Source: Nocardioides xinjiangensis
GTDB lineage: Bacteria; Actinomycetota; Actinomycetes; Propionibacteriales; Nocardioidaceae
Direction: 5' to 3'
Assembly: GCF_017916455.1 (NCBI RefSeq)
Contig: NZ_JAFMSY010000002.1
Location: forward strand, 62,001-126,000
Length of the DNA stretch: 64,000 nucleotides
The notes beneath the pieces are model-generated. The model searched no databases and was not told where the DNA came from. It saw only the letters and a list, made by a program, of their open reading frames with translations. Below, piece after piece: positions 31,898 through 60,359 of the stretch. Both the position numbers and the translations under genes were made by a program. Position 1 is the first letter of the stretch. Every line of letters begins with the position of its first letter.

Positions 31898-31981
31898 GGA
31901 ATCCCCCGCCTAAGCGGGGGATTCCGAACTTCCGGGGGCCTGCACACCCCCAGAAGTTCACGACCCGCGAGCGAGGTCCGG
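31898..31981 (-). repeat. Double-hairpin repeat, copy R1
   Basis: Palindrome GGAATCCCCCGC-ctaa-GCGGGGGATTCC (31898-31925), then GAACTTCcGGGGG ... CCCCCaGAAGTTC (31926-31959), then a degenerate tail reading CGACCCGCGAGCGAGGTCC. On the minus strand it aligns with copies R3-R6. It lies just after the XRE-MurA stop and before the convergent zinc ribbon gene's 3' end, so it could serve as a bidirectional terminator. Confidence 0.9.
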
Positions 31982-42525: not shown

Positions 42526-43980
42526 ATGAGCATCGAGACCGCCGTCGGCCTCGCCACCGGACAGCCCTACCCCTACCAGCGGGTGGAGCTCGTCGAGCCG
42601 GACTGGACCCGCTTCCCGGGCTGGTCCGACGTCACGGCAGCGGACTGGGCGTCCGTGCAGTGGCAGCGCGCGCACTGCATCAAGAACGTGAAGCAGCTGC
42701 GCGAGCTTATGGGCGACCTGCTCGACGAGCGCTTCTACGCCGACCTCGAGCGCGACCAGGCCGAGCGCGCGACGATGTCGATGCTCGTGCCGCCGCAGAT
42801 GATGAACACGATGGCGCCGGCCTTCGAGCCCGCCGGCCCCGGCTCGCTGACCGAGGAGTTCTACGCCGACCCGGTCCGGCACTACATGATCCCGGTGTTC
42901 AGCGACCGGCGCACCGACTGGCCCTCGCACCCGCACGCGGCCCGCGACTCCCTCCACGAGCACGACATGTGGGCCACCGAGGGCCTCACCCACCGCTACC
43001 CCACCAAGGTCCTCGCCGAGCTGCTGCCCACCTGCCCGCAGTACTGCGGCCACTGCACGCGCATGGACCTCGTGGGCAACTCGACGCCGGTCATCGACAA
43101 GCTGAAGTTCGCCGCGAAGCCCAACGACCGGCTCGGCGACATGCTCGACTACCTCCGGCGCACGCCGTCGGTGCGCGACGTCGTGGTGTCCGGCGGCGAC
43201 GTGGCCAACATGCCCTGGCCCCGCCTCGAGGCGTTCCTCATGTCGGTGCTCGAGGTCGACAACATCCGTGACATCCGGCTGGCCACGAAGGCGCTCATCG
43301 GCCTGCCGCAGCACTGGCTGCAGCCCGACGTCGTCGAGGGCGTCGCCCGCGTCGCCGCGGTCGCCCGCTCGCGCGGGGTCTCCCTCGCGATGCACACCCA
43401 CGCCAACCACGCGAGCTCCGTGACGCCGATCGTCGCCGAGGCCTCGCGCGCGATGCTCGACGCCGGCCTGCGCGACGTACGCAACCAAGGCGTGCTGCTC
43501 AACGGCGTGAACGCCGACCCGCACGCGCTGCTCGACCTCTGCTTCCGGCTACTCGACGGGGCGCAGATCATGCCCTACTACTTCTACATGTGCGACATGA
43601 TCCCGTTCTCGGAGCACTGGCGGGTCTCGGTCGCCGACGCGCAGCGCCTCCAGCACCACATCATGGGCTACCTGCCCGGGTTCGCGACGCCGCGCATCGT
43701 GTGCGACGTGCCCTTCGTCGGCAAGCGGTGGGTGCACCAGCTCGCCGACTACGACACCGAGCACGGCATCTCGTACTGGACGAAGAACTACCGCACGTCC
43801 ATCGAGGCCGACGACGCCGAGGCCCTCTCGCGCCACTACGAGTACTACGACCCGATCCACACCCTGCCCGAGTCCGGCCAGCGGTGGTGGGAGGAGCACG
43901 GCCGCCTCGACGAGGCCTCCCTCAAAGCCGCCGAGATGGCCGAGGCGTCGCGGCGTACCGCCGCGCTGCAGGCCTGGTAG
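42526..43980 (+). CDS. kamA: Lysine 2,3-aminomutase
   Basis: 484 residues from ATG 42526, preceded by AAGGAG. It is a radical SAM/PLP enzyme that converts L-lysine to L-beta-lysine. The iron-sulfur motif is C170-x3-C174-x2-C177 (CPQYCGHCTRMD). It is longer than the clostridial enzyme (about 416) by an N-terminal region of about 60 residues, and it ends with a helical tail. It is divergent from kdd-kamDE-kal and forms the first step of the same pathway. Glutamate 2,3-aminomutase is a possible alternative, but the neighbours support lysine. Confidence 0.92.
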   Translation: MSIETAVGLATGQPYPYQRVELVEPDWTRFPGWSDVTAADWASVQWQRAHCIKNVKQLRELMGDLLDERFYADLERDQAERATMSMLVPPQMMNTMAPAFEPAGPGSLTEEFYADPVRHYMIPVFSDRRTDWPSHPHAARDSLHEHDMWATEGLTHRYPTKVLAELLPTCPQYCGHCTRMDLVGNSTPVIDKLKFAAKPNDRLGDMLDYLRRTPSVRDVVVSGGDVANMPWPRLEAFLMSVLEVDNIRDIRLATKALIGLPQHWLQPDVVEGVARVAAVARSRGVSLAMHTHANHASSVTPIVAEASRAMLDAGLRDVRNQGVLLNGVNADPHALLDLCFRLLDGAQIMPYYFYMCDMIPFSEHWRVSVADAQRLQHHIMGYLPGFATPRIVCDVPFVGKRWVHQLADYDTEHGISYWTKNYRTSIEADDAEALSRHYEYYDPIHTLPESGQRWWEEHGRLDEASLKAAEMAEASRRTAALQAW

Positions 43981-44031
43981 GCGCGCGGCCCCTCCGCCCC
44001 TGAGCGCCCCCTGAACGCCCCCTGAAGTCCG

Positions 44032-44115
44032 GCAATCCCCCGCTTAGGCGGGGGATTGCGAACATCAGGGGGCCTGCACGCCACCGGAACTTCGCACAAC
44101 CCTCGGCAAGTCCGG
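44032..44115 (-). repeat. Double-hairpin repeat, copy R2 (left bracket of the DUF559 gene)
   Basis: Palindrome GCAATCCCCCGC-ttag-GCGGGGGATTGC (44032-44059) at the outer end, then GAACATCAGGGGG ... CCACCGGAACTTCG, then CACAACCCTCGGCAAGTCCGG at the inner end. It is flanked by AAGTCCGG at 44025-44032 and 44108-44115. In orientation it mirrors R3. It lies between the kamA stop and the start of the wHTH/DUF559 gene. Confidence 0.92.
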
Positions 44116-44188
44116 TCCGCGGTCGGCGTCCTCCACAGCCGGCACCACCGGCGTTTCCGCCGCCCCGCTCACCGGGCATCACGGGTGC

Positions 44189-45145
44189 ATGCAGCGACCG
44201 CCCGCACCCGACCTCACGCACGTCGTCCGCCTCCGCAGCGAGCTGGTCGACGACGGCTACACCGACCACCAGCTCCGCGTGCTCGTACGCGCCGGTGTCC
44301 TGCACCGGGTCCGGCGCGGCGCGTACGTCGACCGCGCGCTGTGGGAGCGCTTGTCCCCCGTCGACCAGCACCGGGTCCTGTGCCGCGCCGTGCTCCGCGT
44401 CGCGCACCCGCTGACGGCGCTCACCCACGTGTCCGCGGCCGTCGAGCTCGGCGCACCGGTGTGGAACATCCCGCTCGACGAGGTCCACACGACGCGCACC
44501 GACGGCAAGGCGGCCCGCCGCGAGGCCGGGGTCGTGCACCATGCCGGCGCCCTGCCGGAGGAGGACGTGCGCGTCGTCAACGGCGTACGCGTGGGGCCGG
44601 CCGCCCGGGCCGCCGTCGAGGTGATGGCCAGCGTGCCTCCTGAACCGGCGCTGGTCGTCACCAACGGCCTGCTGCACGGACAGCACATGACGCGCGAGGA
44701 GCTGGTCGCGTCGGCGCGGGCGATGAAGCACTGGCCGCACACGCTGTCGGCGCACGTCGTCGTGGCGCTCGCCGACGAGCGGATGGAGTCCGTGGCGGAG
44801 ACGAGGACGTACTACCTCTGCAGGCAGCAGCACCTGCCGAGGCCCGAGCCGCAGTACCCGGTGGTCGACGAGCACGGCCAGGTCTTCGCGCGCGCCGACT
44901 TCGCGTGGCCGGAGCACGGTGTGTTCCTCGAGTTCGACGGGCGCGTGAAGTACGAGCAGCACCGGCGTCCCGGGGAGACGCTCGAGCAGTACCTCATGCG
45001 GGAGAAGCGCCGCGAGGAACGGATCTGCCAGCTCACCGGCTGGGTGTGCATCCGCATCGGCTGGACCGACCTGGCCGACCCGGTGACGACCGCCGCCCGG
45101 ATCCGCCGCCTGCTCGACAGCCGGCGCGGCCCGATCGGCGCCTGA
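44189..45145 (+). CDS. wHTH (AbiEi-like) protein with C-terminal DUF559/Vsr-like nuclease domain
   Basis: 318 residues. Residues about 10-60 resemble the winged helix of AbiEi-type antitoxins (LRSELVDDGYTDHQLRVLVR, AGVLHRVRRGAYVD). Residues about 200-310 form a DUF559 (Vsr/very-short-patch-like) domain: E204 (SVAETRTYYL), D237 (FARADFAWPE), E248-x-D250 and K254 (FLEFDGRVKYE), consistent with a PD-(D/E)xK nuclease active site. No AbiEii toxin is adjacent, so it is not a standard AbiE pair. The gene is bracketed by inverted copies of the double-hairpin repeat; the stop codon touches the right copy. Its function is unknown. Confidence 0.85.
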   Translation: MQRPPAPDLTHVVRLRSELVDDGYTDHQLRVLVRAGVLHRVRRGAYVDRALWERLSPVDQHRVLCRAVLRVAHPLTALTHVSAAVELGAPVWNIPLDEVHTTRTDGKAARREAGVVHHAGALPEEDVRVVNGVRVGPAARAAVEVMASVPPEPALVVTNGLLHGQHMTREELVASARAMKHWPHTLSAHVVVALADERMESVAETRTYYLCRQQHLPRPEPQYPVVDEHGQVFARADFAWPEHGVFLEFDGRVKYEQHRRPGETLEQYLMREKRREERICQLTGWVCIRIGWTDLADPVTTAARIRRLLDSRRGPIGA

Positions 45146-45224
45146 CCTGCCGAGGGTTGTGCGAACCTCCATGGGTATGCAGGCCCCCGGAAGTTCGCGA
45201 TCCCCCGCTTAAGCGGGGGATTGC
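45144..45224 (+). repeat. Double-hairpin repeat, copy R3 (right bracket of the DUF559 gene)
   Basis: It begins at the last bases of the DUF559 stop codon: CCTGCCGAGGGTTGTGCGAA, then CCTCCATGGGTATGCAGG, CCCCCGGAAGTTCG, and the palindrome ATCCCCCGCTTAAGCGGGGGAT (45200-45221). The inner end is nearly identical to the inner end of R2 (GCCGAGGGTTGTGCGAA), closer than to R4-R6 (CTCGAGGGTTGTGTGA). Confidence 0.93.
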
Positions 45225-45235
45225 AAGAAACGACC

Positions 45236-45877
45236 TCACAACCGCGGGAGCAGGACCGGTACGCCGGGGCCGTCGAGCTCCTCACCGGACACCGGGCGCC
45301 CGTACACCAGGCGCACGGCCGCGTTGGCCGACAGCGTGACCTCCGGCCCGTCGCCGTGGCTCCAGCCGGCCTCCGGCACGACGAGGCGGACCCCGGCGAC
45401 GCGACGGCGCGAGCTCCCGCCGATGACGGCTGTGAGCGGCCACGGCGTGGCGAGGGCGAAGTCCGCGATCCGGCCGACGGCCGGCGGCGGGAGGTCGTGC
45501 GGCAGGCCGAGCGGGCGGCGTACGTCGATGCCGTGCACGACGGCGTCCGCCAGCGCCGAGACCCTCGGCATCCCGATCGGCGTTTCGCCGGACCGGGCGT
45601 TGTCGGTGAGCTGCTCGAGGATCGCCTCGCGGCCCCGCGCCGACCACGCCACCGCGGTGCGCGCGATCATCCGGTTCACCGAGCGGTACCGCGCCAGCGC
45701 GACGGCGCCCTGCAGGGCGCCGAGCGTCGGCGTCCACGCCAGGTGCGCCGCGACGTCCACCACGCGCCAGCCGGCGCACAGCGAGGGCTCCTGCCACTGG
45801 GCGGTGGTCAGGGCGGACAGGTCGTCCACGAGCGCCAGGCGCTCGGCGGTCAGCAGGTCGTGCGTGGACGGTGCCAT
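45236..45877 (-). CDS. Maleylpyruvate isomerase family (DinB-like) protein
   Basis: 213 residues. The N-terminal four-helix DinB-like domain of mycothiol-dependent enzymes is visible (ERLALVDDLSALTTAQWQEP, then GWRVVDVAAHLAWTP with a candidate metal histidine near residue 46, and VVHGIDVRRPLGLP near 115). The C-terminal 60 residues form a small beta domain. Substrate unknown; it is a member of a large actinobacterial family. The ATG at 45877 has GGGAGCG upstream. It converges on the DUF559 gene across R3. Confidence 0.85.
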   Translation of the reverse strand: MAPSTHDLLTAERLALVDDLSALTTAQWQEPSLCAGWRVVDVAAHLAWTPTLGALQGAVALARYRSVNRMIARTAVAWSARGREAILEQLTDNARSGETPIGMPRVSALADAVVHGIDVRRPLGLPHDLPPPAVGRIADFALATPWPLTAVIGGSSRRRVAGVRLVVPEAGWSHGDGPEVTLSANAAVRLVYGRPVSGEELDGPGVPVLLPRL

Positions 45878-60007: not shown

Positions 60008-60090
60008 GCACTTCTCGAGGGTTGTGTGAACCTCGGGGGGCGTGCAGGCCCCCGGAAGTTCGCAATCCCCCGCTTGAGCGGGGGATCCGC
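60008..60090 (+). repeat. Double-hairpin repeat, copy R4
   Basis: CACTTCTCGAGGGTTGTGTG, then AACCTCGGGGGGCGTGCAGG, CCCCCGGAAGTTCG and the palindrome ATCCCCCGCTTGAGCGGGGGAT. It is the first of three tandem copies. It is followed by CGCACCC, as are R5 and R6. Confidence 0.93.
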
Positions 60091-60140
60091 ACCCGGGCGC
60101 CGACGCGGCCGGCTACCCGCGCTGGCCCGTCGTCCGCGCC

Positions 60141-60223
60141 GGACTTCTCCAGGGTTGTGTGATCTCCGAGGGGCGTGCAGACCCCCGGAAGTTCGCAATC
60201 CCCCGCTTAAGCGGGGGATCCGC
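60141..60223 (+). repeat. Double-hairpin repeat, copy R5
   Basis: GGACTTCTCCAGGGTTGTGT, then GATCTCCGAGGGGCGTGCAG, ACCCCCGGAAGTTCG and ATCCCCCGCTTAAGCGGGGGAT. It starts 133 bp after R4. Confidence 0.93.
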
Positions 60224-60276
60224 ACCCGGCCGGCCGGCCCGGCCGGCTACCCGCGCTGGCCCCGTCGCTCGCGACC

Positions 60277-60359
60277 GGACTTCTCGAGGGTTGTGTGATC
60301 TTCGAGGGGCGTGCAGACCCCCGGAAGTTCGCAATCCCCCGCTTAAGCGGGGGATCCGC
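60277..60359 (+). repeat. Double-hairpin repeat, copy R6
   Basis: GGACTTCTCGAGGGTTGTGT, then GATCTTCGAGGGGCGTGCAG, ACCCCCGGAAGTTCG and ATCCCCCGCTTAAGCGGGGGAT. It starts 136 bp after R5 and differs from R5 at only a few positions, pointing to recent tandem duplication. It lies 45 bp before the dop stop. Confidence 0.93.

Follow-up and report, generated by a model that had tools for sequence, protein, structure and literature searches.

An AbiEi–Vsr nuclease gene between inverted palindromic repeats in Nocardioides xinjiangensis and the dispersed copies of its repeat

The gene and its two flanking repeats

The DNA analysed here is a stretch of 64,000 nucleotides (hereafter, the window) from contig NZ_JAFMSY010000002.1 of Nocardioides xinjiangensis, whose 3.7-Mb genome is designated G000; other genomes and individual loci are denoted by G and L numbers, respectively. 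The window contains a gene for a protein in which an AbiEi-antitoxin-like part is joined to a Vsr-type nuclease domain, and this is the sole gene between two palindromic repeats, namely R2 and R3. Flanking by matched repeats is a real and general feature of such AbiEi–Vsr genes. The gene and its repeats, which together form a unit of 1.2 kb, are organized as follows.

44032–44115, + strand: upstream repeat R2; hairpin A at 44032–44059, region B at 44060–44095 (pairing weak in R2), and tail at 44096–44115
44189–45145, + strand: AbiEi–Vsr nuclease gene, 318 amino acids, coordinates including the stop codon
44216–44776, + strand: N-terminal AbiEi-antitoxin-like part with winged helix, residues 10–196 (6y8q, Z 10.6; 1zel, Z 8.3; PADLOC AbiEi, E 4.9e-9)
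44786–45130, + strand: C-terminal Vsr/I-Bth0305I-type nuclease domain, residues 200–314 (3r3p, Z 12.1; 1cw0, Z 10.2)
44798, 44897, 44930, 44936, and 44948, + strand: catalytic-type codons of the nuclease domain for E204, D237, E248, D250, and K254, respectively
45141–45224, − strand: downstream repeat R3, inverted; hairpin A at 45197–45224, hairpin B at 45161–45196, and tail at 45141–45160, overlapping the stop codon

The initial annotation, made from the sequence of the window, had described R2 and R3 as lying in opposite orientation around one gene with their hairpins facing outward, and this arrangement was borne out. R2 and the R3 arm at 45141–45224 are inverted copies with 85% identity across 84 nt, and in both, hairpin A is outermost, the tail is innermost, and a further palindromic region (B) lies between them. 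A consensus built from the host-genome copies shows region B as a near-perfect palindrome centred on CCTGCAC; its pairing is good in R3 and poor in R2. None of 200 dinucleotide shuffles of R2 folds as well as R2 itself (z −4.66). R3 had been said to begin at the stop codon, which it does overlap (45143–45145), with its start at 45141 rather than 45144. The further statement that R2 and R3 are closer to each other than to the remaining copies holds for the 17-nt inner end, TTCGCACAACCCTCGGC, which is exact in both and contains at least one mismatch in the remaining copies compared (43 rows, some of which represent one place counted on both strands). It does not hold for the repeat as a whole, as a copy elsewhere, at G000:C1:697548, shares 93% identity with R2 over 81 nt, compared with 85% for R3.

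An AlphaFold2 model of the protein, based on an alignment of 30 homologues, had a mean predicted local distance difference test score (pLDDT) of 92.3 and a predicted template modelling score (pTM) of 0.88. Fold comparison of this model agrees with the proposed fusion of an AbiEi-like winged helix to a Vsr-type nuclease: residues 10–196 matched AbiEi of Streptococcus agalactiae (6y8q; root-mean-square deviation 6.5 over 172 residues) and Rv2827c (1zel), and residues 200–314 matched the catalytic domain of I-Bth0305I (3r3p; 2.3 over 97) and Vsr (1cw0; 2.9 over 105). The fold was identified by structure comparison, as a sequence-profile search of solved structures gave no match. In Pfam, AbiEi_4 was the sole match to the window protein, at a score under its cut-off; DUF559 matches above the cut-off were obtained for the homologues L066 and L068, together with weaker MTES_1575 matches in L063, L066, and L068. 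No match to the window protein was found in PHROGs. Residues 59–196 (44363–44776) also resemble the M. tuberculosis nucleotidyltransferase toxin MenT1 (Z 8.5–8.9), about equally to Rv2827c.

E204, D237, E248, and R275 are invariant in all 101 distinct proteins compared, and D250 and K254 are conserved in 100 and 99 of them, respectively, confirming the five catalytic residues at the positions previously assigned. The ratio of nonsynonymous to synonymous substitution rates (dN/dS) was 0.09–0.32 across eight gene pairs. On the basis of the conserved catalytic residues, the fold matches, and the low dN/dS, the window protein is a conserved and probably active nuclease. In the host-genome paralogue L063 (G000:C1:113667-114566), D250 is replaced by Q and K254 by W; its repeat is listed just once in the genome, as if active-site loss accompanied loss of spread.

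The PADLOC similarity to AbiEi and the lower-ranking fold matches, which include the restriction enzymes AbaSI and PvuRts1I, would fit a defence or restriction-like nuclease, with the repeats marking self or serving as protected sites. However, no AbiEii-like nucleotidyltransferase toxin or methylase was found among the four neighbouring genes scanned at the window locus, and the lineage-specific dispersed repeats described below would be left unexplained, so that we regard this role as very improbable.

Matched repeat pairs in homologues and inheritance of the unit

The 400 bases upstream of each homologue were scored for inverted similarity against the 400 bases downstream, and same-size intervals displaced along the same loci, 1,239 in total (541 for the first set and 698 for the second), served as the control. 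Altogether, 96 of the 102 distinct homologues possess matched inverted repeats at both ends, scoring above every displaced interval. All 35 homologues in the first set, which takes in two host-genome paralogues with ~30% identity as well as one member each from Kocuria, Blastococcus, and an actinobacterial metagenome-assembled genome, scored 21–69, and the 541 displaced intervals peaked at 20. In the second set, representing 21 family labels of the class, 44 of 48 exceeded 20.5, the maximum of the 698 displaced intervals; after removal of four repeats of earlier units, 40 of 44 new units passed. The third set (the G071 unit and the KamA locus) contributed 21 of 23 new units. Excluded before the total of 102 were nine repeats of earlier units (L073, L133, L134, L135, L145, L188, L201, L202, and L205), L151, which is too close to a contig end, and L203, whose frame is broken and which was left uncalled. 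At E 1e-20, the profile of the protein has matches in 204 of 296 Actinomycetia genomes and in 92 of the 114 genera sampled.

DUF222 genes from relatives were scored in the same way to provide a control family, and inverted flank repeats were found in 1 of 26 (4 of 30 loci were dropped owing to insufficient flank). The single DUF222 gene with an inverted repeat between its flanks is L315 (score 34.5). The search for repeat pairs around homologous genes that was proposed in the initial annotation has come out in its favour, with the qualification that the sequence of the repeat is lineage-specific. Solitary copies of the repeat do adjoin unrelated genes in the host genome, which goes halfway towards the sign of mere chance named in advance (repeats equally frequent beside unrelated genes) and is the one point in favour of a coincidence, i.e. 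hairpin-rich intergenic repeats that happen to flank the gene; no other gene class was seen to have a matched pair around it, the one control family, DUF222, giving 1 of 26. Coincidence is refuted by the flank-test and DUF222 counts, and its probability is practically negligible.

Repeat sequences differ between lineages, and their general plan is common. In Nocardioides-type genomes, a hairpin A of variable sequence is usually followed by a second palindromic region. TGCA is present in 52 of the 96 repeats, and the pattern GAYCACGT occurs in 10 of the 96, in several non-Nocardioides-type families. It lies near the outer end in L149, L152, L153, L157, L159, L166–L169, and L067, which belong to several other actinobacterial families. 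In 69 of the 96 units, the upstream repeat has a lower folding energy than any of its 100 dinucleotide shuffles (median z −4.7). When the window repeat was compared with 196 genomes of the genus (best four candidates per genome), only one partial match each was obtained outside G000 in G112 and G071, and the match in G071 lies next to the homologous gene of that genome.

The four neighbouring genes scanned at the window locus are KamA-family, mycothiol-dependent isomerase-like (MDMPI-like), Lrp/AsnC-type, and 5'-3' exonuclease-like genes. Among the 30 loci of the genus that match KamA best, its own included, the unit adjoins a KamA-family gene (the label denoting an NCBIfam match that falls below the curated cut-offs) at 27, always in the same orientation. 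This constancy indicates that the unit is mostly inherited in place. Three of 30 KamA loci are without the gene: L211 and L216 keep a lone hairpin-A-like sequence, and L189 holds other hairpins. At the KamA locus of L203, the gene is split between frames. At close identity, the window unit is single-copy in the host genome, the other members being ~30% identical, and distinct paralogous units are present at other loci in many genomes. No match to the unit was found among 50,697 phage and 72,556 plasmid records.

The suggestion in the initial annotation that the 1.2-kb unit is itself mobile is therefore unsupported, and the same observations bear on its interpretation as a classical transposon with terminal inverted repeats of ~80 bp and a PD-(D/E)XK transposase, the solitary repeats being deletion remnants or similar to miniature inverted-repeat transposable elements (MITEs). 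The location of the gene between inverted repeats, the lone hairpin-A-like sequences at the gene-less loci L211 and L216, and a similarity to TnsA are compatible with such a transposon; TnsA was among the weaker fold matches (Z 6.3–6.4), a level flagged by the tool as possibly a common arrangement. Against this stand the single copy, the fixed KamA neighbour and uniform orientation, and the absence of matches in the phage and plasmid records, in addition to the fact that no target duplication was seen, the flanks having diverged. We consider a classical transposon quite improbable. The whole unit looks stationary, and only the repeats appear to spread.

The two ends of each unit were compared, on the repeats alone, for 31 units located beside KamA. 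Only units with a detected pair were used, so that L204 and L210 are out; L094, whose downstream repeat is further off, was also left out, and 48 of 465 pairs, having <40% identity, were unbinned. Within a unit, one end scored against the other with a median of 42.5. Between units, comparison of like ends gave medians of 9.0–10.5 at 40–60% protein identity and 19–30 at 60–80%, reaching at least 50 only above 80%, against a shuffled background with a median of 7 and a maximum of 9.5. Given the high within-unit score and the near-background score between units at 40–60% identity, these comparisons indicate that the repeat sequence undergoes complete turnover, with the two ends changing in step.

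Dispersed copies of the repeats

In the host genome, 38 places with a repeat of the R family were identified, 2 beside the gene and 36 elsewhere (overlapping search rows were merged, and one 18-nt row was omitted). The solitary copies within the window are as follows.

31900–31981, + strand: solitary copy; site empty in the sister genome G112
60010–60086, − strand: solitary copy, first of a three-copy direct array; array absent in G112 and G071
60139–60219, − strand: solitary copy, second of the array; array absent in G112 and G071
60275–60355, − strand: solitary copy, third of the array; array absent in G112 and G071

To examine dispersal more widely, 16 genomes were searched with 18 upstream repeats joined into one query, and 23 candidates were scored per genome, so that the counts are lower bounds. 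Among the matches listed, 10 of the 16 genomes had three or more dispersed copies of the repeat that flanks their own gene: at least 21 in G026, 10 in G116, 6 each in G140 and G142, 5 in G100, and 3 each in G076, G092, G088, and G012, with G000 as the tenth. A separate search of G026 yielded 22 dispersed copies and 2 flanks. G178 had one listed copy, and G141 had two, which match the related repeat of L084. In G074 and G021, the repeat of the queried unit was not among the matches listed, but many copies of another family's repeat were. G071 was queried with the repeat of L064, a different species, and its repeat counts are uninformative.

The host-genome paralogue L062 (~30% identical) is flanked by a different repeat, at least seven dispersed copies of which are present in the host genome. 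As the L062 and R repeats are thus dispersed as two separate families in one genome, dispersal is tied to the individual gene rather than to the genome alone.

Both sites of solitary copies in the window differ between relatives. The copy at 31900–31981 is absent in G112, where the flanking sequence is continuous, and G071 has other sequence in the interval; the array at 60010–60355 is missing from both G112 and G071. In addition, a copy common to G088 and G030 is missing in G046. Empty sites, for which the initial annotation had advised looking, do therefore exist in relatives, namely for both window sites in G112 and for one copy in G046. Conversely, copies L218, L219, and L227 are common to several species with flanks that are 89–96% identical, which points to some copies being old and well kept. 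In total, 14 sites were compared by BLAST, and six of those in other genomes were aligned base by base (one of the six, L230, did not map to its counterparts).

The dispersed copies are mostly intergenic. Based on de-duplicated counts from simple open reading frame (ORF) calls, 28 of the 36 host-genome places comprised 14 co-directional gaps, 6 convergent gaps, 1 divergent gap, 1 place inside an ORF call, and 6 unclear cases; for 20 of the 22 places in G026, the corresponding numbers were 6, 8, 1, 1, and 4, respectively. Divergent gaps are thus rare for copies (1 of 21 classified in G000 and 1 of 15 in G026) compared with a small background set, in which 7 of 43 gaps are divergent.

This distribution is one argument for an autoregulated nuclease, in which the AbiEi-like part would bind the repeats as operator and transcription-end structures. 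The dispersed copies would then owe their spread to another agent or be retained as terminators or as sites of a regulon. Binding to inverted repeats at their own promoters is a property of AbiEi antitoxins, and the AbiEi fold, the position of R2 shortly before the gene, and that of R3 on the stop codon are likewise in favour of autoregulation. However, an operator need neither recur in inverted form past the stop codon in 96 of 102 units nor stay matched to the downstream repeat through full turnover, and the invariant nuclease site in 101 proteins would be left unexplained. Furthermore, a scan of 43900–45400 for run-of-T terminators detected no site. Overall, we judge autoregulation to be unlikely. 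A scan of this interval for sigma-70 promoters also gave no hit. A reading of the repeats as pure terminators was ranked lower on the basis of the two-ended architecture.

Several variant arrangements were observed. Eight dispersed host-genome elements (L019, L024, L034, L037, L046, L052, L056, and L060) have a symmetric hairpin A–hairpin B–hairpin A structure without the gene-side tail, and L053 resembles two repeats with one common hairpin A. Additional tandem partial copies of hairpin A are present next to the solitary copies L253 and L244, in G007 and G121, respectively. L223 (G116) and L231 (G088) apparently represent one intergenic site occupied by two different repeat families in two species, which hints at preferred sites. 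An Rfam search of the window gave nothing at the repeats; its only match above the gathering score was a glycine riboswitch aptamer (RF00504, 58.1 bits) at 2099–2203 on the + strand, far from the unit.

A candidate nuclease–repeat pair and its relation to known systems

The explanation that we consider reasonably probable is a nuclease–repeat pair that works like the repetitive extragenic palindromic (REP) sequences and their RAYT proteins but with an unrelated enzyme, which would nick the repeat, match the ends of the unit, and seed copies. Recognition, nicking (cutting), and copying of the repeat by the protein are what we infer to be most likely from the combined analysis. The AbiEi-like winged-helix part would recognise the repeat, either as a duplex or as an extruded hairpin, and the Vsr-type domain would introduce a nick in it or close by. 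Starting from this nick, repair or copying would homogenise the repeats, and occasionally a copy would be placed in another intergenic site. The gene-bearing unit would be the resident source and the solitary repeats its non-autonomous copies; the repeats would spread, and the unit would mostly stay put. In its favour are the matched flanks of 96 of 102 units, the tie between dispersal and the gene, the concerted change of the two ends, the invariant catalytic residues together with the dN/dS values, the Vsr and I-Bth0305I fold, the folding of the upstream repeats, and the empty sites in relatives.

Several observations weigh against this explanation. Neither a target-site duplication nor an exact junction could be made out at the two window sites or six others, as sequence between genes changes too quickly. 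Six of the 16 genomes lack three dispersed cognate copies among the matches listed, and a search of G112 with its own repeat yielded one clear dispersed match (79%, E 5.9e-10) and one weak match; this search also missed the unit's own downstream copy, and the joined-query search of G112 gave none among the matches listed. In the host genome, the repeat of L063 was listed only once. No repeat pair was detected in L138, L158, L172, L181, L204, or L210, all six of which keep the five catalytic residues. The location of dispersed copies near gene ends is compatible with a host role, such as termination, and unit-by-unit replacement at the KamA locus could partly explain the turnover of the repeats.

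A wider form of the nuclease–repeat explanation is held more tentatively, at a little less than even probability. It would be a class-wide convergent counterpart of RAYT/REP, in which a Vsr-like nuclease of the homing type, equipped with an AbiEi part for DNA binding, nicks the palindromic repeat that belongs to it, copying short repeats to intergenic sites and overwriting the gene-flanking ends to match, with fast turnover at a fixed locus.

As in RAYT/REP systems, the gene lies between two inverted palindromic repeats (96 of 102 units), and the repeats are dispersed intergenically (36 places in G000, 22 in G026, and at least three in 10 of 16 genomes, with few in G112). Co-evolution of repeat and protein is described for RAYT/REP in the accessible text of PMC8266576. 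That of PMC3733652 describes REPs as 20–40 bp in length and a GTAG/CGTC head next to the palindrome; the repeats studied here are ~80 nt long with two hairpins. RAYTs carry a Y1 (HUH) transposase domain, whereas the present protein consists of AbiEi-like and Vsr-like parts, and PF01797 had no matches in the host genome, while 5 of 14 control genomes do match. Since the Y1 domain is absent and the protein has another fold, the AbiEi–Vsr unit is not a member of RAYT/REP.

The fold of residues 200–314 and its conserved catalytic-type residues are shared with Vsr/I-Bth0305I and DUF559/MTES_1575 proteins, from which the present protein differs in its fusion to an AbiEi-like part and its tie to flanking repeats. 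Similarly, residues 10–196 have the fold of AbiEi from AbiE type IV toxin–antitoxin systems, but a nuclease domain is carried here, and no toxin gene was present among the scanned neighbours. MITEs and insertion sequences are likewise short intergenic elements with inverted repeats, some of which are absent in relatives, but in the present case neither a multi-copy autonomous unit nor a target duplication was found (the flanks have diverged). A Vsr-like protein with a DUF559 domain has been described in Caulobacter (PMC12907096), in the accessible text of which the word stem 'palindrom' is absent. In the accessible text of the open-access literature (subscription papers and preprints being outside the scope), no account was found in which dispersed repeats flank a DUF559, Vsr-like, or AbiEi-like gene. 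To our knowledge, dispersed palindromes with a cognate enzyme are known only for HUH-type RAYTs.

The AbiEi–Vsr family represents a second, unrelated type of enzyme with the genomic layout of RAYT/REP, which suggests a hitherto unrecognised route for the spread of short DNA elements and raises the testable question of whether a nicking enzyme can spread and homogenise short repeats without a classical transposase. If this is true, a large number of AbiEi-like and DUF559-like genes would gain a function, and many unexplained intergenic hairpins in actinobacteria would have an origin.
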